Source: Flavobacterium sp. TR2 | Lineage (GTDB): Bacteria; Bacteroidota; Bacteroidia; Flavobacteriales; Flavobacteriaceae | Length of the DNA stretch: 64,000 nt | Assembly: GCF_025252405.1 (NCBI RefSeq) | Contig: NZ_CP104307.1 | Span: 2,294,001 to 2,358,000, forward strand | Direction of reading: 5' to 3' | Program-made: the position numbers and the translations under genes | Part shown: piece by piece, positions 29,082-50,808 of the stretch | Numbering within the stretch: the first letter of the stretch is position 1 | Layout of the letters: every line of letters begins with the position of its first letter | Notes under the pieces: model-generated | What the model saw: only the letters and a program-made list of their open reading frames with translations | What the model was told of the DNA's origin: nothing | Database searches by the model: none

Positions 29082-29114
29082 AAGTCGGGTACTGAGCATA
29101 CCCGGCTTATTTTT
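29082..29114 (+). terminator. terminator after susD
   Basis: AAGTCGGGTA-N7-TACCCGGCTT followed by ATTTTT. It separates the susCD transcript from the glycosidase genes, or tunes read-through, which would explain higher expression of susCD than of the enzymes. Confidence 0.75.
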
Positions 29115-29390: not shown

Positions 29391-29422
29391 GAGAAGGAAC
29401 GGCAGTCAGTTCTTTCCTTCTC
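29391..29422 (+). other. leader hairpin before the GH2 gene
   Basis: Inverted repeat GAGAAGGAA / TTCCTTCTC around CGGCAGTCAGTTCT, without a T-run, 63 bases before the GH2 start. It could stabilise a processed 5' end or modulate translation. The remaining 29115-29390 shows only an 80-codon frame without a start codon. Confidence 0.4.
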
Positions 29423-29485
29423 TAAACTGCCAAATTACTTACCTTTTTGCTAAATTTAGAAGGTAATAATATAGTACTCAGTAAA

Positions 29486-31474: not shown

Positions 31475-31489
31475 GGTTCTAAGGTGCTG

Positions 31490-31767
31490 AGGTTCTAAGT
31501 TGCAAAGGGGCAAAGGTTTTTCGTAGAGACGCCCTGCGGTGCGTCTTACGCTGAGGTGCTAAGTTGCAAAGCGACAAAGGTTTCCTGTAGAGACGCACTG
31601 CGGTGCGTCTTACACTGAGGAGTTAAGGTACTGAGGTTCTAAGTTGCAAAGTGACCAAGGTTTTCTGTAGAGGCGCACTGCAGTGCGTCTCCTTACGAAG
31701 ATGAGAGTTCATTTTTTTATCATAACGTTCTATAAATTGACCGTAGAGACGCACCGCAACGTGTCTA
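31490..31767. repeat. intergenic GTAGAGACGCACTGCGGTGCGTCT palindromic repeats
   Basis: Four palindromic units (31523-31548, 31587-31613, 31667-31690, 31743-31767) are embedded in imperfect ~65-80-bp tandem repeats that also share GAGGTTCTAAGTTGCAAAG. The units can form stable hairpins. Such dispersed palindromes are common between genes in Bacteroidota. They fill the gap between the GH2 and first GH92 gene. Confidence 0.75.
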
Positions 31768-31793
31768 ACACACAGAATAAAAAATTAAAATAT

Positions 31794-34055: not shown

Positions 34056-34088
34056 GATTTTAGATTTTAGAATATAGATTTTAGATTT

Positions 34089-34344
34089 CCTAACAGGTTT
34101 TAAAAACCTGTTAGGTGTGATTTAAGTTTAAGATTTATGGTCGCTTTGTCAAAGTTTAGACGGTAGAGATTCGCATTGTATAAAAAAATAAATGCCTAAC
34201 AGGTTTTAAAAACCTGTTAGGTGTGATTTAAGTTCAAGATTTATGGTCGCTTTGTCAAGGTTTTAAACTTTGACAAAGTTTAGACAGTAGAGATTCGCAT
34301 TGTATAAAAAATAAATACCTAACAGGTTTTAAAAACCTGTTAGG
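34089..34344. repeat. three copies of a 27-bp perfect palindrome
   Basis: CCTAACAGGTTTT-A-AAAACCTGTTAGG occurs at 34089-34115, 34195-34221 and 34318-34344. The first two are each followed by a near-identical ~80-bp spacer (GATTTATGGTCGCTTTGTCAA and TAGAGATTCGCATTGTAT), and the second spacer has a 17-base insertion. It lies between the two GH92 genes, where it may end transcripts or protect the mRNA. Confidence 0.8.
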
Positions 34345-34359
34345 ATAACAACACAGAGT

Positions 34360-36645
34360 ATGAAAATAAAAAGTTTAATTTTTTTAGGAATTTTACAGTC
34401 CTCTCTTTTTTTGAATGCACAGGTAAAAGCCTTAGATCCTGTTGAATATGTAAATCCGTTAATGGGAACGCAGTCTTTGCACAATCTTTCAAACGGAAAC
34501 ACTTATCCTGCCATTTGCAGACCATGGGGAATGAATTTCTGGACGCCGCAAACAGGGAAAATGGGCGACGGATGGGCTTATACCTACACGGCAGAAAAAA
34601 TCAGAGGATTTAAGCAGACCCATCAGCCTTCGCCTTGGATGAACGATTATGGTCAGTTTTCGATTATGCCTGTTACAGGTAAATTGGCTTTCGCCGAAGA
34701 GGAAAGAGCAAGCTGGTTCAGCCATAAAGCAGAAGTTTCAAAACCTTATTATTACAGCGTTTATCTTGCTGATCATGATGTTACGACTGAAATTACCACA
34801 ACAGAAAGAGCTGCGCATTTTCAGATTACATTTCCCGAAAACGATAAATCTTCTATTGTAATCGATGCTTTTGATAAAGGCTCTTACATTAAAATAATTC
34901 CATCAGAAAATAAAATAATCGGCTATACGACACGCAATAGTGGCGGAGTTCCTCAAAATTTTAAGAACTATTTTGTGCTCGTGTTCGATAAAAAGTTTGA
35001 AACCAATTCAACTTGGATTGATAAAGTTTTGACTGCTGATAAGTTGGAAGCAGAAGGAAACCATGTCGGGGCTGTTGTTACATTTAAGACCAAAAAAGGA
35101 GAAAAAGTAAATGTTAGAGTGGCGTCTTCTTTTATAAGTCAGGAACAGGCAGAACTGAATCTGAAAAACGAATTAGGCACATCGACTTTTGAGCAAACAG
35201 TTTCACAATCTAAAGCGGAATGGAACAAAGTTTTAGGAAAAATTGCTGTAGAAGACACCAATGCAGATCAGCTAAAGACTTTTTATTCCTGCTTGTACCG
35301 TACAGTTTGTTTTCCTCAGAAGCAATATGAAATCGATAAAGAAGGAAAAATTGTGCACTACAGTCCATACAACGGAAAAGTGCTGCAAGGTTATATGTAC
35401 GCAGGTACAGGATTTTGGGATACTTTCCGCGCTTTATATCCTTTGTTAAATCTGGTTTATCCTTCTATAAACAAAGAAATGCAGGAAGGGTTAATAAACG
35501 ATTATAAAGAAGGAGGATTTTTGCCAGAATGGTCAAGCCCAGGTTTCAGGGATGTCATGGTAGGAAATAATTCAGCTTCGGTGGTTTCAGATGCCTACAT
35601 GAAAGGATTGCGTGGCTATGACATCAAAACTTTGTACGAAGCGTTATTGCATGGTGCGAATAATGAGGGGCCAATGGATGCTGTGGGCAGAAAAGGAGTT
35701 CAATACTACAATGCTTTAGGGTATGTTCCATATGATGTGAAGATCAATGAAAATGCAGCGAGAACATTAGAATATGCTTATGATGATTTTGCGATCTGGA
35801 AACTGGCAAAAGCATTAAATCGCCCGAAAAAAGAAATCAGCCTCTATGAAAAACGAATGCTGAATTACAAAAAACTCTTCAATCCGTCAATTGGATTAAT
35901 GAGCGGACGAAATAAAGACGGCAGTTTTCCAGCCAATTTTAATCCGTTCAAATGGGGAGATGCTTTTACCGAAGGAAACAGCTGGCATTACAGTTGGAGC
36001 GTTTTTCACGACATTCAAGGCTTGATTGATTTAATGGGGGGCGAAAAGAATTTTACAGCAAAATTAGACGCTGTATTTACAATGCCTCCAGTTTTTGATG
36101 ACAGTTATTACGGATCTGTTATTCATGAAATTCGTGAAATGCAGATTATGAATATGGGGCAATACGCGCATGGAAACCAGCCCATCCAGCACATGATTTA
36201 TCTGTACAATTATGCAGGCGAACCTTGGAAAACGCAATATTGGTCAAGGGAAGTCATGAACCGTTTGTACAAACCGACTCCAGACGGCTATTGCGGAGAC
36301 GAAGATAACGGACAGACTTCTGCCTGGTATATATTTTCAGCAATGGGATTTTATCCTGTGTGCCCAGGAACAGAAGAATATGTTTTGGGAGCGCCTTTAT
36401 TTAAGAAAACAACTTTACAGTTAGAAAACGGAAAACAGCTTATTATCAATGCGCCAAACAATTCAGAAACTAACAAATATGTAAACGAATTGAAATGGGA
36501 TAATGCTCCTCATTCTAAAAATTACATCAACCATTTTGATGTATTAAAAGGAGGCGAATTAAATTTTGATATGACAGATTCTCCAAATTTTAAAAGGGGC
36601 ACAACAAAAGAAGCATTTCCATATTCTTATTCAACTTCAAAATAA
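34360..36645 (+). CDS. GH92 alpha-mannosidase (second copy)
   Basis: 761 residues with a signal peptide (MKIKSLIFLGILQSSLFLNA). It has GH92 motifs: YVNPLMGTQS, the acid in FTEGNSWHYSW and the base region CGDEDNGQTSAWY. Compared with the first GH92 enzyme, HGNEPNHH is replaced by HGNQPIQH and AWQYTW by SWHYSW, so the +1 subsite should differ and the two enzymes probably cut different linkages. The gene is followed after six bases by the GH125 gene, implying one transcript. Family-92 pairs with different linkage preference are usual in mannan and N-glycan loci; the specific linkage is not predicted. Confidence 0.93.
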   Translation: MKIKSLIFLGILQSSLFLNAQVKALDPVEYVNPLMGTQSLHNLSNGNTYPAICRPWGMNFWTPQTGKMGDGWAYTYTAEKIRGFKQTHQPSPWMNDYGQFSIMPVTGKLAFAEEERASWFSHKAEVSKPYYYSVYLADHDVTTEITTTERAAHFQITFPENDKSSIVIDAFDKGSYIKIIPSENKIIGYTTRNSGGVPQNFKNYFVLVFDKKFETNSTWIDKVLTADKLEAEGNHVGAVVTFKTKKGEKVNVRVASSFISQEQAELNLKNELGTSTFEQTVSQSKAEWNKVLGKIAVEDTNADQLKTFYSCLYRTVCFPQKQYEIDKEGKIVHYSPYNGKVLQGYMYAGTGFWDTFRALYPLLNLVYPSINKEMQEGLINDYKEGGFLPEWSSPGFRDVMVGNNSASVVSDAYMKGLRGYDIKTLYEALLHGANNEGPMDAVGRKGVQYYNALGYVPYDVKINENAARTLEYAYDDFAIWKLAKALNRPKKEISLYEKRMLNYKKLFNPSIGLMSGRNKDGSFPANFNPFKWGDAFTEGNSWHYSWSVFHDIQGLIDLMGGEKNFTAKLDAVFTMPPVFDDSYYGSVIHEIREMQIMNMGQYAHGNQPIQHMIYLYNYAGEPWKTQYWSREVMNRLYKPTPDGYCGDEDNGQTSAWYIFSAMGFYPVCPGTEEYVLGAPLFKKTTLQLENGKQLIINAPNNSETNKYVNELKWDNAPHSKNYINHFDVLKGGELNFDMTDSPNFKRGTTKEAFPYSYSTSK

Positions 36646-36651
36646 AAAGAT

Positions 36652-38115
36652 ATGCAGTCACGTAGAAAATTTATAAAAAACGCAGGCATTTTTTCAGCAG
36701 GATTATTGGCACTTCAAACAGAAGCTTTCGGATTTAATTCAGAAGCTTTTTCCTTCCCGCTAAAAGATTTTGTTTCAAAAAGACCTCCTGTTGCCGAAAG
36801 AAAATTTACAAGCAAGGCGATAGAAGCTGCTATCGTACGCATTAAAAAGCAAATTGCCAATCCAGAACTGGCGTGGATATTTGAAAACTGTTTTCCAAAT
36901 ACATTAGACACCACAGTCGATTTTGAAATCATTGACGGAAAACCTGATACCTATGTCATTACAGGAGATATTGATGCCATGTGGCTCAGAGACAGTACAG
37001 CACAGATCTGGCCGTATATTCCGTTTGTAAAAGAAGATCCAAAACTGGCTGAATTGGTAAAAGGAGTAATTAATCGTCAAGCGAAATGCATTCTGCTGGA
37101 TCCGTATGCAAATGCTTTTTATAAAGATTTTACGAAGGAAAGCGAATGGAAGCATGACCTTACCAAAATGCAGCCTGGAATCCATGAAAGAAAATGGGAA
37201 ATTGACAGTTTATGTTACCCAGTTCGATTAGCGCACGGATATTGGAAGGAAACCGGAGATATCAGTCTATTTGATGCAAAATGGAAAGAGGCCATGCTTT
37301 TAGTCCTGCAGACGTTTAAAGAGCAGCAGCGAATGGACGGTAAAGGCGGACCATACAGCTTTCAGCGTCAGACAGCTTGGGCAACAGATGGTGTCCCATT
37401 AGGAGGTTACGGCTATCCTGTAAAACCTTGCGGATTAATTGTTTCGACTTTCAGGCCAAGCGACGATTCAACTTTATTCGGTTATCTGATTCCGAGCAAT
37501 ATGTTTGCTATTGAAATATTAGGCTATCTGATTGAAATTTTCTCTCTTCCAGCGCTAAAAGACAATGATTTGGTTGCGAAAGCCACAAAATTAAGAGATG
37601 AGGTTCAAAAAGGATTAGAAGAACACGGAATTATCAATCATCCAAAATTTGGCAGAATTATAGCTTTTGAAGTAAACGGATATGGCAGTTTCCACATGAT
37701 GGACGATGCAAATGTGCCGTCTTTATTGTCGCTGCCCTATCTAGGTGCCATTGCTCCAAATGATCCTTTGTACCTTAATACAAGAAAAGTGGTGCTCTCA
37801 GAGAATAATCCGTTTTTCTACAAAGGAAAAGCAGGCGAAGGCATTGGCGGCCCGCACACAGGAGTCGATACCATTTGGCCAATGAGTATTGTTTTGAGAG
37901 CGATTACAAGTGTCGATGAAAAAGAAATAAAAGCCTGTATCAGTAATTTGATCAAAACCAATGCCGACACAGGATTCATGCACGAATCGTTTCATAAAGA
38001 CGATGTAAATAAATTTACCCGCAAATGGTTTGCTTGGGCAAATACATTATTTGGCGAAATGATTGTACACACCAGTATTCATTATCCTCAAATTTTAAAA
38101 GATAAAAATATCTAG
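36652..38115 (+). CDS. GH125 exo-alpha-1,6-mannosidase
   Basis: 487 residues. The N-terminus has a twin-arginine-like start (SRRKFIKNAG) and a hydrophobic segment, so it is exported. The family-125 signature is clear: FEIIDGKPDTYVITGDIDAMWLRDS split over ~80-110, PYSFQRQT, GYPVKPCGLIVSTFRPSDD and TGFMHESF near the end. GH125 enzymes are metal-independent, inverting exo-alpha-1,6-mannosidases. With the two GH92 enzymes and a beta-mannosidase this gives a nearly full set for removing mannose from N-glycan or mannan fragments. The gene is six bases after GH92 and 24 before the ROK gene. Confidence 0.93.
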   Translation: MQSRRKFIKNAGIFSAGLLALQTEAFGFNSEAFSFPLKDFVSKRPPVAERKFTSKAIEAAIVRIKKQIANPELAWIFENCFPNTLDTTVDFEIIDGKPDTYVITGDIDAMWLRDSTAQIWPYIPFVKEDPKLAELVKGVINRQAKCILLDPYANAFYKDFTKESEWKHDLTKMQPGIHERKWEIDSLCYPVRLAHGYWKETGDISLFDAKWKEAMLLVLQTFKEQQRMDGKGGPYSFQRQTAWATDGVPLGGYGYPVKPCGLIVSTFRPSDDSTLFGYLIPSNMFAIEILGYLIEIFSLPALKDNDLVAKATKLRDEVQKGLEEHGIINHPKFGRIIAFEVNGYGSFHMMDDANVPSLLSLPYLGAIAPNDPLYLNTRKVVLSENNPFFYKGKAGEGIGGPHTGVDTIWPMSIVLRAITSVDEKEIKACISNLIKTNADTGFMHESFHKDDVNKFTRKWFAWANTLFGEMIVHTSIHYPQILKDKNI

Positions 38116-38139
38116 TACTAAAAAGCTAAATAAATAAAA

Positions 38140-39039
38140 ATGAATACATCACACGCCATTGGGCTGGATATAGGAGGAACGCATATTACAGCTGCAGTTG
38201 TTAATAAAACAGAGATGAAAGTTTTGGACTATTCGCTCTGCAAAGAATCTTTTGATTCGAATATGCCAGCAGATAAGGTCATGAAAATCTGGAAAAAAGT
38301 AATCTGCACCGCAATAGAAAATTCTAAAGTAAAAGACATTACAGGTATCGCAGTCTGTATGCCGGGACCATTTGATTATAAAAATGGCATCTGCTGGATT
38401 AAAGGCCAATCAAAATACGAGCATTTTTACGGGTTAAACATTAGAGAATTGCTTTTGGAAACACTTGGTTTTCCTGCAGATTTTCCAGTTCTTTTTGAAA
38501 ATGATGCCGTTTGCTTTGGAAAAGGAGAAGTCTTTAAACTACAGGAAAATCTTTCTAAAAAAGTAATGGCTGTTACTTTGGGGACAGGATTAGGAGCTTG
38601 TTTTATTGATAAAGGAGTTTCGATCAGTTCAGGAAATTCTGTTCCAGCTGATGGAGAAATATACAATCTGCCTTATAAGGATAAAATGGCCGAAGATTAT
38701 GTTTCTGTTAGAGGCCTTTTGTCACATTACAAATCTTTAACGGGTACGGAGCTTAATAATGGCTTGGAACTTTATGGTTTGGCAAAAGATGGAGATCAGC
38801 AAGCAATTCTGGTATTTGAAAGAATGGGAGAGGATCTAGCGGCTGTTACTATTCCGTGGATTAAAAGCTTTGCAGCAGATCATATCATTATCGGCGGAAA
38901 AATTGCTAATGCAAGCGATTTGTTTTTATCTTCATTTAATAAAACAATTCAGGAGTCTGGTTTAAACATAGAAGTCTCCATTTCAAATGACAATGAAATC
39001 GCAGCGTTACTAGGAGCAGTCAGTTTTCTTTGCGATTAA
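38140..39039 (+). CDS. ROK-family sugar kinase without the zinc motif
   Basis: 299 residues. ATP-binding start IGLDIGGTHITAAV, catalytic aspartate in FENDAVCFGKGE, and phosphate loop TLGTGLGACFID are all present. The usual ROK zinc-binding cluster (CxCGxxGCxE after GH) is absent; the region reads PADGEIYNLPYKDKMAEDY instead. It is thus a zinc-free ROK subgroup. No helix-turn-helix, so it is a kinase rather than a regulator. As the last gene of a mannosidase locus it probably phosphorylates the released mannose (or glucose or GlcNAc) in the cytoplasm; ROK substrate cannot be fixed from motifs alone. The sugar phosphate could also be the signal for the LacI protein. Confidence 0.88.
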   Translation: MNTSHAIGLDIGGTHITAAVVNKTEMKVLDYSLCKESFDSNMPADKVMKIWKKVICTAIENSKVKDITGIAVCMPGPFDYKNGICWIKGQSKYEHFYGLNIRELLLETLGFPADFPVLFENDAVCFGKGEVFKLQENLSKKVMAVTLGTGLGACFIDKGVSISSGNSVPADGEIYNLPYKDKMAEDYVSVRGLLSHYKSLTGTELNNGLELYGLAKDGDQQAILVFERMGEDLAAVTIPWIKSFAADHIIIGGKIANASDLFLSSFNKTIQESGLNIEVSISNDNEIAALLGAVSFLCD

Positions 39040-39598: not shown

Positions 39599-40267
39599 CT
39601 ATAATAATCCTAAGTTTTTAGCTTTTTCTATTAAATCTTTATCGCTTCCTTTTCCTTTTAACAGCTGATCTTTAATGTTTGCTTTTCTTTTCTCTATAGC
39701 ACTCATCGAAAGAGGAATATAATCTGGAAGATTTACCGTTTTTACTCCCTCAGAAATTAAAATTAAAATTTGGTTGTCATGATTATCCCAATTTATGTTT
39801 TTCTTAAATAATTCTCTTTGGGATTCTACTATTGTACTGCTCCTAAATATTTCGCCATCAATAATATTTTTGCAAATCACAGGAAATGATTCAAAATTGA
39901 TATCATTTTTTGATATAAAGCCTTCAGGTCTTATGCCTTTTATTATTTTGTCCACAGTCAAAGGCTCACTGCGCATTGTAAGAAGAACTATTTTACATTT
40001 TGTGAATTTTTCTTTTAGAACAAATGCTAAATCAATACCGTCATTAATATTTAATTGTTTATGTGGGGGCAGATTTATATCAAGCAATGCGATATCAATA
40101 TTAATATTCTGTTTTAGGTTTAAAATAATTTTATTATAAGCATCTTCACAATTATAGCTCTTTATAAAGTTTGGAGTATTTTCTTGAAATTGACCGTCGG
40201 ATAAAAGGTTGACATAACTATCCACAGTCATCGGATGGTCGTCGACGATTAAAATATTTAGGTTCAT
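39599..40267 (-). CDS. NarL/LuxR-type response regulator
   Basis: I start at ATG 40267 (MNLNILIVDDHPMTVD), which puts the acidic pair D9-D10 where receiver domains have it; an upstream in-frame start adds only nine residues. The phosphoacceptor is D63 in ALLDINLPP. The C-terminal ~60 residues form a LuxR-like helix-turn-helix (ILISEGVKTVNLPDYIPLSM / SAIEKRKANIKDQLL). It is divergent from a small lipoprotein and a NarL-type histidine kinase, its probable partner. Two CCGTA inverted repeats lie in the shared upstream region, and CCGTAATTTT direct repeats precede the dehydrogenase and the NRPS genes, so it is the likely activator of all of them. Confidence 0.88.
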   Translation of the reverse strand: MNLNILIVDDHPMTVDSYVNLLSDGQFQENTPNFIKSYNCEDAYNKIILNLKQNINIDIALLDINLPPHKQLNINDGIDLAFVLKEKFTKCKIVLLTMRSEPLTVDKIIKGIRPEGFISKNDINFESFPVICKNIIDGEIFRSSTIVESQRELFKKNINWDNHDNQILILISEGVKTVNLPDYIPLSMSAIEKRKANIKDQLLKGKGSDKDLIEKAKNLGLL

Positions 40268-40307: not shown

Positions 40308-40421
40308 TACGGATTTTCCGTACTGTAAATTAAATGCAATCTAATGCTAGTGAATAGTTAATAAATAATAATCAAATTATATTATTTTGGATGGTAGAGT
40401 AAATTTTACGGATTTACCGTA
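40308..40421. promoter_or_regulatory. two CCGTA inverted repeats between divergent regulator genes
   Basis: TACGGATTTTCCGTA (40308-40322) and TACGGATTTACCGTA (40407-40421), 99 bp apart. They are 15-bp palindromes differing in one base. NarL/LuxR-type regulators bind such inverted pairs. They are placed to control both the response-regulator gene (minus) and the lipoprotein gene (plus). Confidence 0.7.
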
Positions 40422-40478
40422 CATTTTAATTTAGTTATAGTAGTTTTTTTGTTAAAATAATCAACTAAAATTATTTTT

Positions 40479-40742
40479 ATGAAAAGCAAATTATTTATTT
40501 CAGGAGTGCTGATTTTTGTTTTATCGCTGACTTCTTCGTGTACAAATGATGATTATGAAATACCGCAGGATAATAGCAGAGAATTAAAAGTTGTGCCAAA
40601 ATACCCATTAAACAATCTCAATGAAAACGCAAATATGCAGCATTCGCAAGACACTATAGAGTCTACTGTAAATCGAGAGATAAACGTTACATCTGGTGCA
40701 TACGGTGATCCAAGTAACCCTAGGCCGCCCAGAAAAGATTAA
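40479..40742 (+). CDS. small lipoprotein beside the histidine kinase
   Basis: 87 residues: lipoprotein signal with lipobox TSSC (Cys21), leaving a mature chain of 67 residues with no recognised domain and a Pro/Arg-rich end (YGDPSNPRPPRKD). It is encoded immediately upstream of the kinase and downstream of two CCGTA palindromes, so it is probably induced by the response regulator. It could be an accessory sensor, a modulator of the kinase or the source of a peptide signal; none of these is shown by the sequence. A terminator after the gene would make it the main product of this promoter. Confidence 0.65.
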   Translation: MKSKLFISGVLIFVLSLTSSCTNDDYEIPQDNSRELKVVPKYPLNNLNENANMQHSQDTIESTVNREINVTSGAYGDPSNPRPPRKD

Positions 40743-40761
40743 TTTTTGTAGTATTTTGAAG

Positions 40762-40802
40762 AAGACTATTTTTATTTATTTTAAATTTAATAGTCTTTTT
40801 TA
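40762..40802 (+). terminator. terminator between lipoprotein and kinase genes
   Basis: AAGACTATT / AATAGTCTT stem with an 18-base AT loop and TTTTT tail, ending 16 bases before the kinase start. It should lower kinase expression relative to the lipoprotein. Confidence 0.65.
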
Positions 40803-40817
40803 TTCAAAAGACTATAT

Positions 40818-42854
40818 TTGAAATATAAAATAATAATTAAACTATTGAAAACTATATTTAATTTATTTTTTTTATTTCTAGCGCTGCTAATTTTCTCATG
40901 TAAGAAAACTCAATCGACTAATTCGGAATTGAGTAGAGATATTTCATTTGTTAATAATTTAGATAGTAAATCAAAAGAGAGGTATCTCGATTCTATAAAT
41001 GCTTTATTAAAGTATCAAAAAAATGATTCTGTTATTAGAAATTTCTACTTTAAGATTTCTACAGAATTTTATAATAATAATAATTTTAAAAAATCGTTAT
41101 CGGCAAGTTTAATGGCTCTTAAGCTATCGAAGGAGGTAGATGATAAAAAAGGAATTGCAAAAGCGCTTTATTATGTTGGAGATAGTTATGTAAATGTAAA
41201 AAAAGATAGTTCTTATTTCTATTATTTGCAGGCAGAAAAATTGTACTACAAATTATCTGATTATGATAATACGGCAAGAATGTTATTCAATAAAGCTTAT
41301 GTACTTTTTTATGATGGAAATTATACAGAATGTGAAGTTGAAATTTCTAAAGCTTTAAAACTTTTAAAAGCCTCCAAAGATGAAAGACTAATTTATTCCT
41401 GTAATACCTTAATGGGAAATTGTCAAGAGAAGTTAGCAAATTATGATAAAGCATTATGGTATCATCAATTGGCTTTAAATACTTTTAAGACAATGAAGTC
41501 TAAAGATATAGATCAAGATGAAATACTTAATTATGATGTAACATCTATTATCAACATCTGTAATCTTTACGATATAAAAGGTGAATATTCAAAATCTATT
41601 AAAAAATTAAGTGAATTACTCTCAAATCATTTAAAAGAAAAATCACCTAGATTATATGCCAATGTTCTCAGCAATTTGGCTTATTCAAAAATGAAAAGCG
41701 GACAATTTCATAATGTTTATGGGATGTTTTCCGAATCCTTAGAAATAGTAAAAAATAGCGGAAATGAATCTGATATTCTCTATAAAAAAATTCATATCGG
41801 CGAATATTTTTTAACCCAACGAGATACTGGTAAAGCAATTCAAATTCTTAAAGAAGCAAAGCAATTGGCAATTAGAATTAAGAACAGCAATGAAATTTTA
41901 ACTTCATTAAAACTACTTTCGGTTTTAGATAAAGAAAATAGATTTTACTATGCAAATGAATATATAAAATTAAGCGATAGTATAAATATTGTTCAAAAAA
42001 ATACGCATAACAAATATGCGCGAATTGAATATGAAACTTCTAAGATTGAAGATGAAAATAGAATTTTAACGACAAAGAACCTCTATATTATAATTATTTC
42101 ATTTGGTGTGATTCTATTATTAGTCATTGTTTTTATTTTGAGATATTTTAAATTTAAAAATAGCGAAATCAGGTTTTTAAAGTTGCAGAAAAAGGCTAAT
42201 GAGGAAATATATTTGTTGTTAACAGAACAGCATGAAAAAATTAACTCTGCCAAAGAAAATGAAAAAACTAGAATTGCCAGAGAATTACACGATGGTATCA
42301 TGAACAAAATTTATAGTGTCCGTATGAATTTAGGTTTTTTTAATTCTAAGGTCGATCAACAAATCATCGAGAAGAGAAAAGAGTTTATATCCGAGTTGCA
42401 AGTTATAGAAAATGAAATTAGAACCATATCTCATGATTTAAGCAGAACTTCTTTTTTGGATGGTAATGATTTTAATAGTTTATTGATGGGCTTAATCGAA
42501 AATCAAAAAGAAATTAGTAAAACTAACTTCAAGTACATAACAGATTCAGATTTTGAGTGGGGAGACATCCAAAATATTTGCAAGATAAATTTATATCGCA
42601 TCGTTCAGGAAGCTATTTTAAATGTTAACAAATATGCCAATGCCAAAAATTGTGAGATCTGTATCCAAAAACACAGCAGCAAATCTTTGATAATGAGTAT
42701 TGTGGATGACGGTCAGGGCTTTGATGTTAGAGCCAAAAAGAATGGTATAGGATTAACTAATATGAGCGAGAGAACAGAGTCTATGGGAGGTGAATTCTAT
42801 GTGGAATCAAAAATTGGGATAGGCACCAGAATACAAATTACGCTTCACTTCTAA
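40818..42854 (+). CDS. TPR-containing NarL-type sensor histidine kinase
   Basis: 678 residues. I use the TTG start at 40818, since an in-frame stop lies just upstream and no ATG gives the signal region (FLFLALLIFSCKK, possible lipobox Cys28). Residues ~55-375 are tetratricopeptide-like helices (AKALYYVGDSYVNV, ARMLFNKAYVLFYDGNY) outside the cytoplasm, then a membrane helix (~416-440, LYIIIISFGVILLLVIVFIL), a short coiled coil, HisKA_3 with phospho-His in IARELHDGIMNKI, and the ATPase N-box (IVQEAILNVNKYANA) and G-boxes (DDGQGFD, GIGLTNMSERTES, GIGTRIQITL). The family signals to LuxR-type regulators such as the divergent 39599-40267 gene. The ligand is unknown. Confidence 0.88.
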   Translation: MKYKIIIKLLKTIFNLFFLFLALLIFSCKKTQSTNSELSRDISFVNNLDSKSKERYLDSINALLKYQKNDSVIRNFYFKISTEFYNNNNFKKSLSASLMALKLSKEVDDKKGIAKALYYVGDSYVNVKKDSSYFYYLQAEKLYYKLSDYDNTARMLFNKAYVLFYDGNYTECEVEISKALKLLKASKDERLIYSCNTLMGNCQEKLANYDKALWYHQLALNTFKTMKSKDIDQDEILNYDVTSIINICNLYDIKGEYSKSIKKLSELLSNHLKEKSPRLYANVLSNLAYSKMKSGQFHNVYGMFSESLEIVKNSGNESDILYKKIHIGEYFLTQRDTGKAIQILKEAKQLAIRIKNSNEILTSLKLLSVLDKENRFYYANEYIKLSDSINIVQKNTHNKYARIEYETSKIEDENRILTTKNLYIIIISFGVILLLVIVFILRYFKFKNSEIRFLKLQKKANEEIYLLLTEQHEKINSAKENEKTRIARELHDGIMNKIYSVRMNLGFFNSKVDQQIIEKRKEFISELQVIENEIRTISHDLSRTSFLDGNDFNSLLMGLIENQKEISKTNFKYITDSDFEWGDIQNICKINLYRIVQEAILNVNKYANAKNCEICIQKHSSKSLIMSIVDDGQGFDVRAKKNGIGLTNMSERTESMGGEFYVESKIGIGTRIQITLHF

Positions 42855-42970
42855 ATCTGCAATTCACAAAATTTAAAACTGCCCCTAAAAGCAACAATTG
42901 CTATTAGCGGCAGTTTGCTATTGCCTCAAACTGCTGATTTTAAGTATTACATCTGCAAATAAATTCAAGT

Positions 42971-43027
42971 CCGTAATTTTTATACACAAAGCCCGTAATT
43001 TTCAGATGGGTGTTCCTATTATTTTCG
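42971..43027 (+). promoter_or_regulatory. dehydrogenase promoter with CCGTAATTTT direct repeats
   Basis: CCGTAATTTT at 42971-42980 and 42993-43002 (22 bp apart) and a TATTTTCG -7-like box at 43020-43027, 27 bp from the second repeat. The same layout stands before the first NRPS gene, where even the intervening AGATG-N2-TGTT is similar. Predicted leader to ATG 43237 ~200 bases. Confidence 0.7.
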
Positions 43028-43236
43028 TAAAAAAGATAATTCTTTAAGTTGAAAAATAATTTAAAAGAAGAATTAACTGCCTTTTGTCTATCAGAATTGT
43101 AATGGAATTGTGAATGTTTTAAATCAGAGGTCAAATTAAATAACATATAAAAAGTACATATAGTATGCTTGTATTTGCTAATGAAAATAAATATACGGAC
43201 AACCAGAATAGCCCAATAAATAATATTCAAGCTAAA

Positions 43237-44475
43237 ATGAAAAAAGCACTAAATAACTTTGAAAGTAAAGAACCTTTGCTTGTTTTTAATTGGAAAGATT
43301 CTGAATCTGAGGCTGAAGGGTGGACTATTATCAATTCTCTTCGCGGTGATGCTGCGGGCGGCGGGACACAGATGAGAAAAGGACTTGATATGAAAGAAGT
43401 TCTGTATTCAGCCAAGATGATGGAGATGAAATTTTCAGTGTCTGGGCCATCTATTGGGGGCGCTAAATCTGGGATTAACTTTGATCCAAATGATCCGCGA
43501 AAAAAAGAGGTGCTTAAGCGTTGGTATAAAGTGGTTTCTCCTTTATTGAAAAGTTATTATGGAACCTACGGCGATTTTAATGTTGATGATATTAATGAAG
43601 TTGTGCCCATTACAGAAGAATGTGGTATTTGGCATCCGCAAGAAGGTATCTCTAACGGACATTTCAAACATACAGAGGCAGATAAAATTAATAGGATTGG
43701 CCAATTGCGCTATGGTGTTTTAAAAATAATTGAGAATTCGAAATTTTCGCCTGACGTTAGTAAAAAGTATACTATTTCTGAAATGATCAATGGTTATGGT
43801 ATCGCAGAAGCAATTAGACATTACTATACGCTTTATGGAGGAGAATTAAAAGGGAAAAAGGTCATCGTTCAAGGTTTTGGAAGTGTAGGCGCTGCAACAT
43901 CATTTTACTTAACTAGTTTGGGTGCAAAGATTATAGGAGTTATAGATAGTGAAGGAGGTTTAATTAATGAGGAGGGGTTTTCTATGGAAGAAATTCGCTT
44001 GTTGTTTCTGACTAAAGACGCGAACAAATTTGTCAGTAAAAATAAAATCCCTTTTGAAGTGATTAACGAGAAAATTTGGTCAATAGGCGCAGAAATATTT
44101 GCGCCCTGTTCTACATCTGAGAAAATAACTCAAAATCAAGTTGAGCTTTTAGTTTTAAACGGACTAGAAATTATTTCATGCGGCGTTAATATGCCTTTTG
44201 CAGATTCAGCCGTTTTTTATGGTCCAACTATGGAATATGCTGATAACAAAGTAAGTGTATTGCCTTATTTTATCTCAAACTGCGGCATGGCTCGACTTTT
44301 TGCTTACTTTATGCAAAAAGAAGTAAAAATGGATGATGAAACCATTTTTAATGATATTTCCCAGACGATAAAAGATGCTATAATGAAAGTTTATAGTTTA
44401 AATACTTCCAAAACAAATATTAGTGCTCGTGCTTTTGAGATTGCATTAAAAGAACTTGACAAAGTTGAGTCTTAA
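43237..44475 (+). CDS. Glu/Leu/Phe/Val-type NAD(P)-dependent amino-acid dehydrogenase
   Basis: I start at ATG 43237 (MKKALNNFESKEPLLVFNWK), since Bacteroidota homologs begin about here; an in-frame ATG at 43165 would add 24 residues. The substrate domain has the glycine-rich AAGGGTQMRKGLDM, the catalytic-lysine region MKFSVSGPSIGGAKSG, and GDFNVDDI. The Rossmann domain starts at VIVQGFGSVGAATS. The reaction is reversible oxidative deamination of an amino acid to its 2-oxo acid. Its promoter shares the CCGTA repeats and spacing of the NRPS promoter, so it may adjust precursor supply (for example branched-chain or aromatic amino acids) for the peptide. Substrate is not clear from motifs. Confidence 0.88.
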   Translation: MKKALNNFESKEPLLVFNWKDSESEAEGWTIINSLRGDAAGGGTQMRKGLDMKEVLYSAKMMEMKFSVSGPSIGGAKSGINFDPNDPRKKEVLKRWYKVVSPLLKSYYGTYGDFNVDDINEVVPITEECGIWHPQEGISNGHFKHTEADKINRIGQLRYGVLKIIENSKFSPDVSKKYTISEMINGYGIAEAIRHYYTLYGGELKGKKVIVQGFGSVGAATSFYLTSLGAKIIGVIDSEGGLINEEGFSMEEIRLLFLTKDANKFVSKNKIPFEVINEKIWSIGAEIFAPCSTSEKITQNQVELLVLNGLEIISCGVNMPFADSAVFYGPTMEYADNKVSVLPYFISNCGMARLFAYFMQKEVKMDDETIFNDISQTIKDAIMKVYSLNTSKTNISARAFEIALKELDKVES

Positions 44476-44970
44476 AAATGAACTTTTGCTTTTAGGGCTT
44501 GGCAGATTTTACCGACAGCTTAAGAAAACCAATTATGTCCAAAGTTTTACAATCAACCATTGAGAATGGCTTTTTTCTCATCCGAAAAGCCAATCCATTT
44601 TGGAAAATCCAGACAGGTTAACCGGATGCTCATGCTAAAACCAATCTTTTCCTGATCGAAACTTCACACGTATTTTATTTCTATTAATCGTTTGGCATCT
44701 CTGAAAGCAAATCCATTTGAAGCGTCTTCTTTAGAATGCCCAAAAGAAGCGAATTGAAACTGAAATATGTTTTCCTATTTCAAAACTTATTAAAATAAAA
44801 AATTACCTCAATCTTTTAAAAATAACCGAAGAGAAACAGCATAAACATAGGTGTATCTCACAAAATTTAGGAATGCTATTCTTTATGTGTTTTAAAGGAG
44901 ATTAAAAAAAAGAGAATAAGAATCCATGTTGTTATTCGGTTCATGATTAATGGTTTGGACGCTTTAAAAG
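44476..44970. other. gene-free stretch before the NRPS promoter
   Basis: About 500 bases without a gene. Short plus-strand frames such as one starting at 44534 (MSKVLQSTIENGFFLIRKA) are broken by stops within ~30 codons, so a decayed gene is possible. No terminator is obvious after the dehydrogenase gene. Confidence 0.35.
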
Positions 44971-44971
44971 T

Positions 44972-45028
44972 CCGTAATTTTTTTATAAAAACCCCGTAAT
45001 TTTTAGATGAATGTTACTGCTATTTTGG
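44972..45028 (+). promoter_or_regulatory. NRPS promoter with CCGTAATTTT direct repeats
   Basis: CCGTAATTTT at 44972-44981 and 44994-45003 (22 bp apart), then TATTTTGG at 45021-45028 as -7 box, 27 bp from the second repeat. Spacing is identical to the dehydrogenase promoter at 42971-43027. Predicted start near 45034, leaving a ~170-base leader. Confidence 0.75.
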
Positions 45029-45207: not shown

Positions 45208-48200
45208 ATGGATAATACGATGTCAAATAATATTAATTTGGTTTCAAAATATTGGAAGAAAAAGATATTAAACAGAGAGGAAGTTCTTGGGGGGCATCAG
45301 AAACCAAATAGTCTGCCTTGTGTCACTGTTAATGCCAATGAACTAAACTATTTTAACAGTCTTACCAATAAAAACCCAATAGCTCAATATACTGTTATAA
45401 GCGCTATTTATTCTTTTTTGCTAAAGAAACTGATTAATGAATTTGACGGTTTTGTCGTATCAAATTTTGGTGGTAAAAATAATTCCTTGCTATTATCATA
45501 TTCCACAGATTTAAAAACATCTTTTAAGGAATATCTAAACCAGATTAAACTTGAAATTCTAGAGACATTAAATCATTCTGATTACAATACTGATAGTATA
45601 TCTAAAAAAACAGGTATTACTGATTTAAATGTTTTCTCTAATTATAGTATAAATATCAATTCTGAATCTCAGTTATATTGTAATGGTCTTTTGTTTGATA
45701 CAAAAATAAATGAGAGAGGTGATATAGAAATTCGCGCCTCTTATTTGGAAGGTTTTGTAAAAAAAGCAGTAGCAGAACGTTTGGTTCAGTATTTTAAATG
45801 TTTTATAACTAGTTTAGAAAGCAGCATAACATTTAATTTATGGGAATATCCATTGCTTTCTGAAAATGAAAAACACCAATTATTGGTGAATTTTAATGAT
45901 ACCGATACTGCTTACCCGAAAGATAAAACGATAGTAGATTTATTTGAAGAACAAGTTGAAAATACTCCAAATAATATTGCTGTTCAATTTGAAGAAACGA
46001 AATTAACGTATAAGGAAGTAAACGAAAAGGCCAATCAGTTAGCTCATTATATTTCTTCCAAACATTCTATAAATAAAGGCGACATAATTGGTGTGTTTTT
46101 GCCAAAGTCTGATATTGGAATCATTTCAATATTGGCAATACTAAAGTTAGGTGCGGTTTATTTACCGATAGACACAAGTTACCCTCAAGAAAGAATAGAC
46201 TATTTAATACAAGACAGCGGTTTAAAATTATTAATTAGTGACAGTATCAAATTAGATATTGATAATTGTGAGACAATAGTTCTAAAATCAATAAATTTTG
46301 AAGACAATTGCAGCGATAATATTAATGCATCTATTTTATCCAAAGATTTAGCCTATGTAATTTATACATCTGGTTCTACCGGAAAACCTAAAGGGGTGAT
46401 GGTTGAACATAGGAGTAATATAAATATGTCTTTGGATCAGATTAAGTCTTTTGGGATTAATGAAGATGACAAGATTGTATGGTTTGCTTCAGTAGCTTTT
46501 GATGCATCCATATCTGAGATTATGATGAGTTTGTATAGTGGTGCCACATTATGCATTCCGACAGAAGAAATAATAAAAGACAAAGATCGATTTATAAGTT
46601 TTTTAAAAGAGACAAAATCAACGGTAGTTACTTTTCCTCCAAGTTATTTAGGATTACTTTCTGAAAACGATATTTCTGGATTGAGATGTATAATTACTGC
46701 CGGAGAATCTGCTAATTCAACTAAAGCAAAAGCGGTTGTAGAATCAGGAATTGATTATTACAATGCCTATGGACCTACAGAATGTGCTGTTTGTGTGTCG
46801 ATTTATAAGGTAACCAAAGATGATTTTGAAAAGTCAGTGATTCCAATTGGCCGACCAATATCAAATACTCAAGTTTATATATTGGATGAAGCATTAAAGC
46901 CATTGCCGATTGGAGCAACAGGAAAGCTGTATGTTTCGGGTTCTGGTGTGGCTAGAGGTTATTTAAACAAGTCTGAGCTTACAGAAGAAAAATTTATTGC
47001 AAATCCTTTTATAGAAGGGGCACGTATGTATGATACGGGAGATTTAGCGTGTTGGTTACCCGATGGCAATATTGAATTCTTAGGAAGAAAGGACCAGCAG
47101 GTAAAAATCAGAGGATATAGAATTGAGCTGGGAGAAATAGAAAACACAATTTCGCAGTATTCAGAAAATTTAAAACAAGTAGCTGTTGAGGTAAGAGAAA
47201 ACAACCAAGAGAAAGTATTGGCTGCTTATCTGGTATCGACGATAAACATAGATAAATCAGAACTGAGACGCTTCCTGCAAGCGAATTTGCCAGATTATAT
47301 GGTTCCAGGGTTTTATATTGAATTAGAAAAATTGCCAGTAACCCCTAATGGAAAAATAGACAGAAACTCTTTGCCCGATATTTCTGTACAAGATGTTATA
47401 AGAAAAGAGTATGTGGGGCCAAGAAACAGAACGGAAGAAAATTTGGTTCTAATATGGCAGGAAGTATTAGGAATAGAGCCAATAGGAATAACCGATAATT
47501 TCTTTGAGTTAGGAGGACATAGTCTTAGTACAGCTCAAATAATCAACAGTACCCGTAAGCAATTAGGAAAAACGGTATCATTTAAGGCGTTTTTTGCCAA
47601 TCCAACGATAGAAGGCCTGAGTAAGGAGTTACAGGAGAAGGATTTTACAGCAATACCAAAAGCAGCAGAAGCATTGTCTTATCCTTTGACACCTTCGCAA
47701 AGCAGACTTTGGATATTGACCCAATTGGAAGGTGGTTCATTGGCGTATAATATGCCGGCGGCTGTCAAACTAACAGGAGTTGTTGATGGGACTAAATTTG
47801 AAGAATCTTTTAAACGATTGATTGACCGTCATGAAATTTTGAGAACCACCTTCAAAACAAATCTGTCAGGAGATGTTCGACAATTTATAGTACCTGCAGA
47901 GCAAATTAATTTTAAAATAGCAGAGCAGGACTATAGTGCAAAAGAAAATCAAGGAGAAACCATTGCAGCTTATTTGCAAGCAATAAACAGTGAGCCTTTC
48001 GATTTAGAACAGGCACCACTTGTAAGAGCATCTTTAATCAAATTAAAAGAAGACGAATATGTGTTTTTCTTATCCCTTCATCATATTATTGGAGATGGAT
48101 GGTCAGTAGAAGTATTGATGTCTGAGGTTGTGAAAACCTACAATTCGCTCATGCAAGAGACAGAAATTGACTTGCCTGAATTAAAACTTCAGTACAAGGA

Positions 48201-50808
48201 CTATGCAGTGTGGTTCAACAGCGAAATACAGCAGGAGAAGTATCAGGCATCTGAGCATTATTGGCTTAAACAATTTGAGGGAGAGCTGCCAGTATTGGAT
48301 TTGCCAAGTTTTAAAATCCGACCGCTAATTCAGACGTATAATGGAGAGAGCCTTACACACAGATTTTCGAGGGTATTTTTAGAGAAATTAAAGAAATACT
48401 CGAAAGACCAGGGGCTTACCTTGTTTATGAGTTTAATGGCGGGAATAAATGCTTTACTGCATAGATATACAGGTCAGGACGACATTATAATAGGAACGCC
48501 AATAGCCGGAAGAGAACATCCGGATCTGGAGCATCAAATAGGCTTGTATCTCAATACGCTTGCCATACGGACGCGATTGCAAAAAGAAACCAGTTTTTCT
48601 GATCTGGCAGCATCCCAAAAGGAGACTTTATTGGGAGCTTATGAATATCAAAGTTATCCTTTTGATGTATTGGCGGGCAAATTGAATTTAAAAAGAGACA
48701 CGAGCCGTAACGCTTTGTTTGATGTTCTGGTGGTTTTGCAAAATCAGAGACAATTGAACAATCTTAATAATGTAGAACTGGCAAATTTTCAGGTAAGTGA
48801 TTATGAGTTTTCCAGAAAAACATCCCAATTTGATGTAAGTTTCACCTTTACAGAAACAGAAGGGTTAGACTTGACTATTGAATACAATACCGACATCTAT
48901 GATGCGTATTTGATTGAAAGAATGTTTCCTCATTTTGAGAATCTCGTTACGGCAGCTCTGGAACAGCCAGAAATACCTATTCAGGAGATACAATACCTCA
49001 CTAAAGAAGAAGAGCAGCAGCTATTGGTTGGGTTTAATGATACAGCGATAGCTTATTCAAAAGATAAAACAATAATAGACTTATTTGAAGAACAGGTTGC
49101 CAGCACGCCAAATAATATTGCTGTTGTATTTGAAGATATACAGCTAACATATCAGGAGCTAAATGAAAAGGCAAACCAATTGTCTTTTTACTTAAGAGAA
49201 CATTACGCTGTTGAACCCGATGATTTGATCGGTATAAAGCTCAATAGAAGCGAGAAGATGGTCATCACTGTTCTGGGAATATTAAAATCGGGGGCGGCTT
49301 ATGTGCCAATAGATGTTAATTATCCTCAGGAGAGAATCGCTTATATTGAGAAGGACAGCAATAGCAAGATTGTTATTGATGAAAAAGCTTTAGGTGTATT
49401 TACAGAAATGCAGCAGAAATATTCGAAAGAGAATCCAAGCAAAATAAACAAACCGCAGGATTTAGCATATGTAATTTATACATCTGGGACTACCGGGAAT
49501 CCAAAAGGAGTTATGATAGAGCATGGTAATGCAGTGGCACTGATCAATTGGTCAAAATTGGAATTTGATCAGTCAAAATTTGAAATCATGTACGCGGCAA
49601 CATCCTATTGTTTTGATTTATCAGTGTATGAGATGTTTTACACCTTAGCAATAGGGAAAAAGATCAGGGTTTTAAATAATGCTTTGGAAATAAAAAATCA
49701 TATAAATGAGGAAAGCAGAGTGGCCTTAAATACGGTGCCTTCTGTTGTTAGAAACTTATTGGAAGACAACATAGATTTAAAGAATGCAACTTTTATCAAT
49801 ATGGCAGGAGAAATTGTACCTCCTGATATTGTGGAAAAACTTCAGACAGAAAAAATAGAGGTCAGAAACTTATACGGACCATCAGAGGATACAACTTACA
49901 GTACAAGTTATAAAGCACTCAATCAAACCTATATCAATTTTCCAATTGGTAAACCAATATCCAATACACAGGTTTATATTCTAGATCCTGATTTTCATTT
50001 AGTTCCCGTTGGAGCAGTAGGAAAACTGTATCTCTCGGGGGCAGGAGTAGCAAGAGGATATTTTGGCAAACCAGAACTTACAAAAGAGAAGTTTATCTCG
50101 AATCCTTTTATAGCGGGAGAACGAATGTATGATACGGGAGATTTGGGCAGGTGGCTGCCAGACGGTAATATTGAATTTTTGGGAAGAAAGGATCAGCAGG
50201 TTAAGATACGAGGGTACAGAATCGAACTTGGTGAGATAGAGAATGCGATATTACTGTATTCAGAGAATTTGAAGCAAGTAATTGTTGAGTCAAAAGAAGT
50301 AAATCAGGAGAAAGTATTAATTGCCTATTTAGTATCGAATGCAGACCTAGATAAGGCAGACCTAAAGAAATTTTTGCAAGAAAAGCTGCCAGATTATATG
50401 GTTCCAAGCTTTTATGTTCAATTGGAAAAATTACCGTTGTCTCCAAATGGAAAGGTGGATAGAAAGGTTTTGCCTGGCATATCTGGAGATGATATTATGA
50501 GAAAAGAGTATACAGCTCCAAGAAATGAGGTTGAGAACAAGCTGGTTTTAATATGGCAGGAAGTTTTAGGAATTCAGAAAATAGGGGTTACAGACAGTTT
50601 ATTTGAATTAGGAGGAAACAGTTTAAGTGCGACAAGATTAATTAGTCTTATACATAAAGAATTTGAAGTAAAAATTTCTATTAATGATTTATTCAAAAAT
50701 AGAACATTAGAAGATCAAGCTGTTTTTATTGAAAATATTCATGCAGCGTTTGGTGTTGATGCGGATCAAGATAAAAGCAATGTTGAAATTGAAAAGTTTT
50801 ATATATGA
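45208..50808 (+). CDS. NRPS 1: half-C / A1-T / C-A2-T (predicted Tyr or Phe, then Ala)
   Basis: I place the start at ATG 45208 (MDNTMSNNINLVSKYW); ATG 45220 is also possible, and a frame from TTG 45178 is less likely. Residues 1-~215 are only the C-terminal lobe of a condensation domain, without HHxxxDG. Then A1 (~265-700; YTSGSTGKPKG ~383; hand-read code DASTIAAVCK, aromatic), T (LGGHS ~767), C (~825-1270; HHIIGDGWS ~957), A2 (~1310-1740; YTSGTTGNPKG; code DLYNNALTYK, alanine-like) and T (LGGNS ~1799). The acidic tail (NVEIEKFYI) suits the docking domain of NRPS 2. As the first module lacks an active C domain, this is the initiating subunit. No epimerisation or methylation domain is seen. 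Confidence 0.9.
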   Translation: MDNTMSNNINLVSKYWKKKILNREEVLGGHQKPNSLPCVTVNANELNYFNSLTNKNPIAQYTVISAIYSFLLKKLINEFDGFVVSNFGGKNNSLLLSYSTDLKTSFKEYLNQIKLEILETLNHSDYNTDSISKKTGITDLNVFSNYSININSESQLYCNGLLFDTKINERGDIEIRASYLEGFVKKAVAERLVQYFKCFITSLESSITFNLWEYPLLSENEKHQLLVNFNDTDTAYPKDKTIVDLFEEQVENTPNNIAVQFEETKLTYKEVNEKANQLAHYISSKHSINKGDIIGVFLPKSDIGIISILAILKLGAVYLPIDTSYPQERIDYLIQDSGLKLLISDSIKLDIDNCETIVLKSINFEDNCSDNINASILSKDLAYVIYTSGSTGKPKGVMVEHRSNINMSLDQIKSFGINEDDKIVWFASVAFDASISEIMMSLYSGATLCIPTEEIIKDKDRFISFLKETKSTVVTFPPSYLGLLSENDISGLRCIITAGESANSTKAKAVVESGIDYYNAYGPTECAVCVSIYKVTKDDFEKSVIPIGRPISNTQVYILDEALKPLPIGATGKLYVSGSGVARGYLNKSELTEEKFIANPFIEGARMYDTGDLACWLPDGNIEFLGRKDQQVKIRGYRIELGEIENTISQYSENLKQVAVEVRENNQEKVLAAYLVSTINIDKSELRRFLQANLPDYMVPGFYIELEKLPVTPNGKIDRNSLPDISVQDVIRKEYVGPRNRTEENLVLIWQEVLGIEPIGITDNFFELGGHSLSTAQIINSTRKQLGKTVSFKAFFANPTIEGLSKELQEKDFTAIPKAAEALSYPLTPSQSRLWILTQLEGGSLAYNMPAAVKLTGVVDGTKFEESFKRLIDRHEILRTTFKTNLSGDVRQFIVPAEQINFKIAEQDYSAKENQGETIAAYLQAINSEPFDLEQAPLVRASLIKLKEDEYVFFLSLHHIIGDGWSVEVLMSEVVKTYNSLMQETEIDLPELKLQYKDYAVWFNSEIQQEKYQASEHYWLKQFEGELPVLDLPSFKIRPLIQTYNGESLTHRFSRVFLEKLKKYSKDQGLTLFMSLMAGINALLHRYTGQDDIIIGTPIAGREHPDLEHQIGLYLNTLAIRTRLQKETSFSDLAASQKETLLGAYEYQSYPFDVLAGKLNLKRDTSRNALFDVLVVLQNQRQLNNLNNVELANFQVSDYEFSRKTSQFDVSFTFTETEGLDLTIEYNTDIYDAYLIERMFPHFENLVTAALEQPEIPIQEIQYLTKEEEQQLLVGFNDTAIAYSKDKTIIDLFEEQVASTPNNIAVVFEDIQLTYQELNEKANQLSFYLREHYAVEPDDLIGIKLNRSEKMVITVLGILKSGAAYVPIDVNYPQERIAYIEKDSNSKIVIDEKALGVFTEMQQKYSKENPSKINKPQDLAYVIYTSGTTGNPKGVMIEHGNAVALINWSKLEFDQSKFEIMYAATSYCFDLSVYEMFYTLAIGKKIRVLNNALEIKNHINEESRVALNTVPSVVRNLLEDNIDLKNATFINMAGEIVPPDIVEKLQTEKIEVRNLYGPSEDTTYSTSYKALNQTYINFPIGKPISNTQVYILDPDFHLVPVGAVGKLYLSGAGVARGYFGKPELTKEKFISNPFIAGERMYDTGDLGRWLPDGNIEFLGRKDQQVKIRGYRIELGEIENAILLYSENLKQVIVESKEVNQEKVLIAYLVSNADLDKADLKKFLQEKLPDYMVPSFYVQLEKLPLSPNGKVDRKVLPGISGDDIMRKEYTAPRNEVENKLVLIWQEVLGIQKIGVTDSLFELGGNSLSATRLISLIHKEFEVKISINDLFKNRTLEDQAVFIENIHAAFGVDADQDKSNVEIEKFYI

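Follow-up and report, generated by a model that had tools for sequence, protein, structure and literature searches.

Genes for non-ribosomal peptide synthetases (NRPSs) in Flavobacterium sp. TR2 are very probably activated through paired CCGTAA sites by an auto-inducing module of a two-component system and a small lipoprotein; in relatives, the module would also activate other operons. The window that we analysed is a stretch of 64,000 nucleotides (contig positions 2294001-2358000) of the 5.1-Mb genome, and the proposed activator is a NarL-type response regulator encoded at positions 39599-40267 of the window. A preliminary description of this DNA had suggested one activator for all the sites, most simply this regulator, and this is the best-supported reading. 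It is supported by the uniqueness of the sites in the genome, the co-occurrence of site and regulator in the genus, independent pairs on a phylogenetic tree, the 22-bp spacing kept by deep relatives, the shared -7 geometry, the recognition helix, and fused operators in other genera. Further support comes from the NRPS genes behind 16 of 18 distant sites, the sites beside the regulator at two loci (L088 and L116), and the joint absence of lipoprotein and palindrome.

Results

All eight CCGTA half-sites listed in the preliminary description are present (Table 1). They form two palindromes and two direct repeats; in this report, a direct repeat means two half-sites whose starts are 22 bp apart. 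The palindromes, said to lie between divergent regulator genes, are indeed located 5' of the response regulator gene, but on their other side they adjoin a gene, omitted from the preliminary description, for a small lipoprotein (40479-40742) whose tail, of the GDPxNPKPPR type, is conserved; the kinase gene comes after it. The claimed 27-bp geometry was exact: measured from start to start, the distance between the proximal half-site and the -7 box (TATTTTCG or TATTTTGG) is 27 bp at both promoters.

Because CCGTA is over-represented throughout the window (82 occurrences versus 36.6 expected), the pentamer alone proves nothing and we rejected its counts as evidence; the part not due to chance is the arrangement. 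The pattern CCGTAATTT-N13-CCGTAATTT with up to three mismatches had two matches in the window, both perfect, versus 0.06 expected. A genome scan for the motif, suggested earlier as a check, found the perfect direct repeat only at these two sites; ten other matches carried two or three mismatches, and the reversed control gave 17 matches at up to three mismatches. The palindrome TACGGATTTNCCGTA likewise has two exact copies in the genome, both in the window, and three more with one mismatch (two in the control).

The -7 box has the same position in both classes of site. Of 38 promoters in which a palindrome faces a lipoprotein gene, 32 have a TTTG that begins 31 bp downstream of the right-hand CCGTA. 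Loci selected only for their regulator supplied 56 direct-repeat promoters, of which 41 have TAnnTT at offset 27 and 34 have TTnG at offset 31. For TAnnTT, 41 of 56 is the unbiased value; a larger set, in which 100 of 121 sites have it at that offset, includes loci fetched for the box. The position of the -7 octamer is thus identical in the two classes. In 121 non-identical direct-repeat sites, the informative columns were the half-sites with their A/T tracts, the -7 box, and one A further on, and no conserved TTTG was seen near -33. According to the accessible passages of PMC6847099, the F. johnsoniae -7 consensus is TAHHTTTG (T-12 to G-5) and the -33 element is weak in general. On those coordinates, the proximal half-site begins at about -39, its direct partner at about -61, and its inverted partner at about -49; the predicted transcription starts are near 40456, 43032 and 45033. 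The fixed distance from half-site to -7 box and the overlap with the upstream element fit class II (-35-overlapping) activator geometry.

We compared 398 congeneric genomes, 30 of which (own included) have a close orthologue of the regulator, defined as a best match of at least 70% identity. For these counts and for the tree below, a direct-repeat promoter was the repeat plus the -7 box with up to two mismatches. Such a promoter was present in 28 of the 30 genomes with a close orthologue and in 0 of the 368 others. With up to three mismatches, there were 63 matches in 36 genomes versus 20 for the reversed control (counted by eye); since the control also gave 20, eight genomes with three-mismatch matches only were left uncounted. 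The preliminary description had made its proposal depend on conservation of the sites in strains with the same cluster, and in related loci the sites are conserved. When only NRPS-rich genomes were considered (n = 41; at least three Condensation matches, with up to four domains scored per genome), the promoter was found in 24 of 24 with a close orthologue and in 0 of 17 without. The idea that NRPS genes as such carry the direct repeat was therefore rejected.

Phylogenetic confounding was examined with an rpoB-region tree and rejected. Sixty genomes were chosen (30 with a close orthologue, 17 other NRPS-rich genomes, 10 further genomes with regulators of 55-64% identity, and three with a single Condensation match), and 59 entered the tree, as G126 gave no rpoB match. 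The close orthologue needs 13 changes on this tree. In independent pairs, the direct repeat followed the orthologue in 12.6 of 13 on average and went the opposite way in none (p 0.0002-0.0005); among NRPS-rich genomes it followed in 10 of 10. Relatedness thus does not explain the association. Physical linkage is a partial caveat, because the direct repeat is often close to the regulator gene.

A looser core pattern, CCGTAA-N16-CCGTAA-N21-TANNTT with zero mismatch, gave 116 matches in 61 of the 398 genomes versus one match for the reversed control (genus-wide match lists, counted by eye). Fifty of these 61 genomes fall among the 95 with a regulator relative at E<=1e-54. Genome G235, which is NRPS-rich and lacks a close orthologue, and also G362, G381 and G126, have direct repeats of this form together with more distant regulator relatives; all of these but G126 are in the tree. 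Among the 13 genomes with 55-64% regulators, palindrome and lipoprotein are kept in six of seven fetched loci.

The spacing is retained beyond the close orthologues. At loci of regulators with 34-53% identity (24 loci, 392 kb), all 26 CCGTAA pairs that lay 7-120 bp apart were spaced exactly 22 bp; the same spacing was seen in 29 of 50 pairs in the close set (38 loci) and two of seven in the 56-65% set (17 loci), all three sets of loci including near-copies. For inverted pairs, a distance of 10 bp likewise predominated in every set (46, 12 and 14 cases), so that the deep-relative loci keep both the inverted and the direct operator. In the family-level set of 149 genomes (own included), the direct repeat was found in five, four besides our own. 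Only G425 and G435 of these four, representing two other genera of the family, carry it beside the regulator, as a composite operator (TACGG-N5-CCGTAA-N16-CCGTAA) that lies some 50 and 90 bp, respectively, past the regulator gene. Both composite operators (L305:4313-4350 and L306:6443-6475) face a convergent gene and may perhaps drive a small RNA.

To learn which genes follow the repeats, 19 stretches (L120-L138) were fetched for direct repeats apart from the regulator loci. One of them, L125, was the kinase's own locus, with NRPS genes downstream of the repeat. The other 18 sites lie at least 12 kb away from the regulator or on a different contig. NRPS genes are found downstream on the same strand in 16 of them, and in the remaining two (L126 and L132) the contig ends after the repeat. 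In several cases the first gene encodes a NusG-type antiterminator (PF02357 in L101, L120 and L163; similar by eye in L104 and L125), an arrangement presumably reminiscent of LoaP/UpxY; NRPS genes follow it in three of the four stretches inspected, and not within L101. Other non-NRPS first genes encode thioesterases, an ABC exporter, a carbamoyltransferase, and a TauD oxygenase. In G004, which has no Condensation match, polyketide synthase (PKS) genes follow the repeat (L109; L111 starts alike). One direct repeat lies close to the regulator in most fetched close-orthologue loci. In L088 and L116, it lies between the regulator and divergent NRPS genes, replacing palindrome and lipoprotein, and no kinase gene was found in the fetched stretch.

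The direct repeats of the distant group precede other genes. The targets given here are examples from the fetched loci, without a figure for enrichment: genes for peptides with double-glycine leaders (by eye, L233 and L199), RteC, a subtilase, and several predicted lipoproteins, while several targets have no family match. At L233:3065-6644 in G235, three direct-repeat promoters are each followed by double-glycine-leader peptide genes (by eye), and then by a gene for a VKOR protein with a sub-threshold C39 match; this locus appears to be a bacteriocin-type cluster controlled through the same operator. Defence-like genes stand behind direct repeats in L219, L220 and L238, encoding AbiH, a MazG-like protein with a Schlafen-type helicase, and a NACHT protein (second gene), and possibly belong to the same regulon. 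The preliminary description proposed that the sites would be the control switch of the peptide. This is supported but incomplete: the regulon in relatives is not confined to the cluster, and the lipoprotein also belongs to the module.

The regulator has a receiver domain (PF00072, above the cut-off) with D10, D63 and K120 invariant among 40 sequences. Its profile matched RcsB, EvgA, NarL and VraR in the PDB, with matches that extend into the C-terminal domain, and the best folds for its structure model (pLDDT 90) include full-length RcsB, LiaR and DesR. Despite a missing Pfam match, these profile and model matches indicate a C-terminal LuxR-type helix-turn-helix (HTH). In the 40 sequences (40-95% identity), E192, K193, R194 and K199 never vary, while K195, A196 and I198 are almost invariant. 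All of them fall inside helix 188-203 of the model, the putative recognition helix, and their constancy is in step with the constant half-site. Named records that hold regulator relatives are mostly from Flavobacterium. The kinase matches PF07730 (HisKA_3), PF02518 (HATPase_c) and TPR; its membrane topology was assigned by eye.

Of 35 loci that encode both regulator and kinase, 32 contain a small lipoprotein open reading frame (ORF; by eye, without a tail filter; the tail in L139 differs). In the other three (L091, L097 and L112), regulator and kinase are present with neither lipoprotein nor palindrome, and L108 and L139 have the lipoprotein and no exact palindrome. A palindrome of the form TACGG-N4-7-CCGTA occurs in the fetched stretch of 25 of the 30 close-orthologue loci (own included). 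No Pfam or NCBIfam model matches the window lipoprotein. The lipoproteins have a lipobox, acidic residues following the Cys, a variable middle part, and a conserved tail. Across 36 aligned sequences, M1, C21, G76 and P78 never vary; these sequences were gathered with a tail filter, so that the tail conservation is partly by selection. A profile search gave 47 proteins, from Flavobacterium or a flavobacterial metagenome-assembled genome wherever the organism was named. Tandem copies follow one palindrome in L214:6859-7779 (three) and L217:2289-2869 (two), in F. covae and F. columnare records. In many sequences C21 is followed by TNDD or SNDD, which is similar, not identical, to SDDFE, the surface-export signal (LES) of F. 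johnsoniae according to the accessible part of PMC5080379; because of this resemblance, surface exposure is likely.

Table 1. Features of the module and its targets in the window
Feature	Position	Strand	Remarks
Response regulator, NarL/RcsB/LiaR type, 222 aa	39599-40267	-	PF00072, PDB profile, structure model
Palindrome 1, TACGGATTTTCCGTA (TACGG-N5-CCGTA)	40308-40322	.	Near regulator start
Palindrome 2, TACGGATTTACCGTA	40407-40421	.	Right half-site (40417) faces lipoprotein promoter
Predicted -7 box TTTTTTTG, lipoprotein-kinase promoter	40444-40451	+	27 bp from CCGTA at 40417
Small lipoprotein, 87 aa	40479-40742	+	Lipobox SSC-TNDD, tail GDPSNPRPPRKD
Sensor kinase: TPR region, HisKA_3, HATPase	40845-42854	+	N-terminal signal and transmembrane segment by eye; TTG start, 40818 possible
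Direct repeat before dehydrogenase	42971-43002	+	Half-sites CCGTAATTTT at 42971 and 42993
-7 box TATTTTCG, dehydrogenase promoter	43020-43027	+	
Glu/Leu/Phe/Val-type (ELFV) dehydrogenase, divergent	43165-44475	+	PF00208, PF02812, distant glutamate dehydrogenase matches; ATG 43237 possible
Direct repeat before NRPS genes	44972-45003	+	Half-sites CCGTAATTTT at 44972 and 44994
-7 box TATTTTGG, NRPS promoter	45021-45028	+	
NRPS 1, two A, one C, two T domains	45208-50808	+	TTG 45178 possible
NRPS 2, TubC docking domain, three C, three A, three T domains	50966-60643	+	
NRPS 3	60643-64000	+	ATG overlaps NRPS 2 stop; runs beyond window

Beyond the window, NRPS sequence interspersed with other genes extends approximately as far as contig position 2391860. 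Elsewhere in the window, 23173-39039 holds a LacI-type regulator gene with GH92, GH125 and ROK genes, which looks like a locus for mannan or N-glycan utilisation, and 20531-22649 encodes DUF3164 and an S24-peptidase protein, suggesting a phage-derived stretch.

Discussion

From these sites and their neighbours, we infer the following scheme for signal, binding, dimer arrangement and activation. The TPR-sensor kinase would phosphorylate the NarL-type regulator, which would then bind CCGTAA with its HTH. Starting 27 bp ahead of the -7 box, the proximal half-site covers part of the -33 region, where polymerase would be recruited. At the lipoprotein-kinase promoter, a symmetric dimer would occupy the palindrome, whose partner half-site is inverted (TACGG-N5-CCGTA), resulting in auto-induction of the sensor branch. 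At the target promoters, the direct partner 22 bp (two helical turns) upstream would probably hold a second dimer in tandem, and the proximal dimer would contact polymerase in place of the -33 element. Here the targets would be the dehydrogenase gene and, if the operon reaches so far, NRPS genes spanning about 50 kb. Those of relatives would include further NRPS and PKS operons and, with the distant regulators, double-glycine-leader peptides, defence-like genes, and others.

Several observations weigh against this reading. Two of the genomes with a close orthologue, G299 and G331, keep the module with neither direct repeat nor Condensation-domain match. Almost half of the genomes with a regulator relative at E<=1e-54 (45/95) have no zero-mismatch direct repeat, and 11 of the 61 core-pattern genomes (11 of 303 others), some of them incomplete, have no such relative. 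Among the 13 genomes with 55-64% regulators, only three have a zero-mismatch direct repeat, and three of the 13 are NRPS-rich. Of the 149 family genomes (own included), only five have the direct repeat but 78 a regulator relative at E<=1e-45, so that most relatives outside the genus show no direct repeat of this form. The Pfam LuxR-type HTH model did not match the regulator at E 0.001. For five of 40 regulator stretches (L082, L088, L089, L115 and L116), no nearby kinase was found; L105 ends early. Some targets are non-biosynthetic, namely an S15 peptidase, outer-membrane barrels, and a giant Ig-repeat protein. Lastly, the same genome encodes a paralogous regulator (contig 788945-789592) that has the recognition-helix core EKRK in common.

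That this paralogue is the main activator of the sites seems very improbable to us, despite the shared helix. No palindrome or direct repeat lies within its 7.5-kb neighbourhood, and regulator relatives in general, found in 359 of the 398 genomes at E<=1e-20, are far more widespread than the direct repeat (28 or 61 genomes). The regulator might instead control its own palindrome promoter only, with an unlinked factor reading the direct repeats. The difference in orientation, inverted versus direct, would agree with two factors, as would the palindromes without direct repeats in most genomes with 55-64% regulators and in G299 and G331. We nevertheless consider a separate factor quite unlikely, as the half-site and its distance to the -7 box are identical in both classes, the direct repeat co-varies with the regulator on independent branches, and the two operators are fused beside the regulator in other genera; moreover, the direct repeat adjoins the regulator in L088 and L116.

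Binding by the same regulator could also mean repression, with the protein on the proximal half-site over the -33 region blocking polymerase until the signal removes it. A protein at about -39 could equally hinder polymerase; however, the lack of a conserved -33 TTTG in direct-repeat promoters is what would be expected of activator-dependent promoters, although the -33 element is weak generally (PMC6847099, accessible passages). The fixed two-turn spacing also seems to favour activation, and we regard repression as unlikely. NRPS genes recombine, and one direct repeat is close to the regulator in most close-orthologue loci, as would be seen if the repeat were a passenger copied with NRPS promoters and its co-occurrence with the regulator reflected inheritance of the cluster. 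Such copying is hardly credible given that conservation in the 121 sites is confined to half-sites with A/T tracts, -7 box, and one further A, that the repeat also precedes non-NRPS genes, that it is absent from the 17 NRPS-rich genomes without a close orthologue (up to two mismatches), and that deep-relative loci keep the 22-bp spacing with different genes behind it.

The lipoprotein is probably a conserved part of the module that acts at the sensor as ligand or co-receptor, a role consistent with its linkage in 32 of 35 loci, the promoter geometry, the predicted exposure, and the conserved tail. A role as reporter of envelope state would fit the evidence equally well. Mean identity to the window protein over 48 loci was 0.69 for the regulator, 0.61 for the kinase, 0.61 for the sensor, and 0.42 for the lipoprotein. 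We rejected correlated divergence of lipoprotein and sensor as a weak argument, because the sensor is conserved equally with the kinase; this favours a shared over a diversified ligand and proves none. Co-encoding of a small exported product with the kinase, as in peptide-pheromone systems, holds for 32 of the 35 regulator-kinase loci; no dedicated exporter or processing protease gene was identified, no systematic search having been made. Tentatively, the lipoprotein could be a surface-displayed or released signal of cell density or kin lysis, and the periplasmic TPR domain would sense its conserved GDPxNPKPPR-type tail. The whole would then be a peptide-type quorum- or danger-sensing module of Bacteroidota that uses an operator code of its own and drives a conflict regulon, made up of NRPS and PKS genes in one group and of double-glycine-leader peptides and abortive-infection-type genes in others. 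The paralogous kinase-regulator pair of the same genome (L304:3440-6506), which has the same EKRK helix, has a 74-aa small secreted ORF (by eye) upstream of the kinase, and small secreted ORFs adjoining TPR kinases may be general.

The module resembles the NarL/FixJ family (RcsB, LiaR/VraR, DesR, EvgA) in fold, domain order, HisKA_3-class partner kinase, and short inverted half-sites. It differs in its half-site, CCGTAA, which serves auto-control as an inverted pair with starts 10 bp apart and the targets as a direct pair at 22 bp, and in being usually coupled to a small lipoprotein. In Gram-positive bacteria, peptide-pheromone two-component systems of the plantaricin or Blp type control bacteriocins. 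They likewise join a small exported product, a kinase, and a regulator in one unit with antimicrobial-type peptide targets, but the small product here is a predicted surface lipoprotein, the sensor is a TPR region, and the phylum is Bacteroidota. As with cluster-situated NRPS regulators of other phyla, the regulator gene adjoins biosynthetic genes; unlike them, one module in relatives has sites at several separate NRPS operons per genome. In the accessible passages of the open-licence literature, nothing was found on the regulation of Flavobacterium NRPS clusters, a CCGTAA operator, or a lipoprotein-coupled module, and those on Bacteroidota peptide signalling likewise held nothing on the module. 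The accessible text of PMC10936215 had no passage with NRPS or two-component terms.

Conclusion

The pattern CCGTAA-N16-CCGTAA-N21-TAnnTT (116 matches versus one in the control, 398 genomes) is a ready search tool for co-regulated genes. The module makes the question of peptide signalling in Bacteroidota directly testable. If our reading is true, a single regulator or peptide might give access to many clusters, as yet unstudied, across many species.

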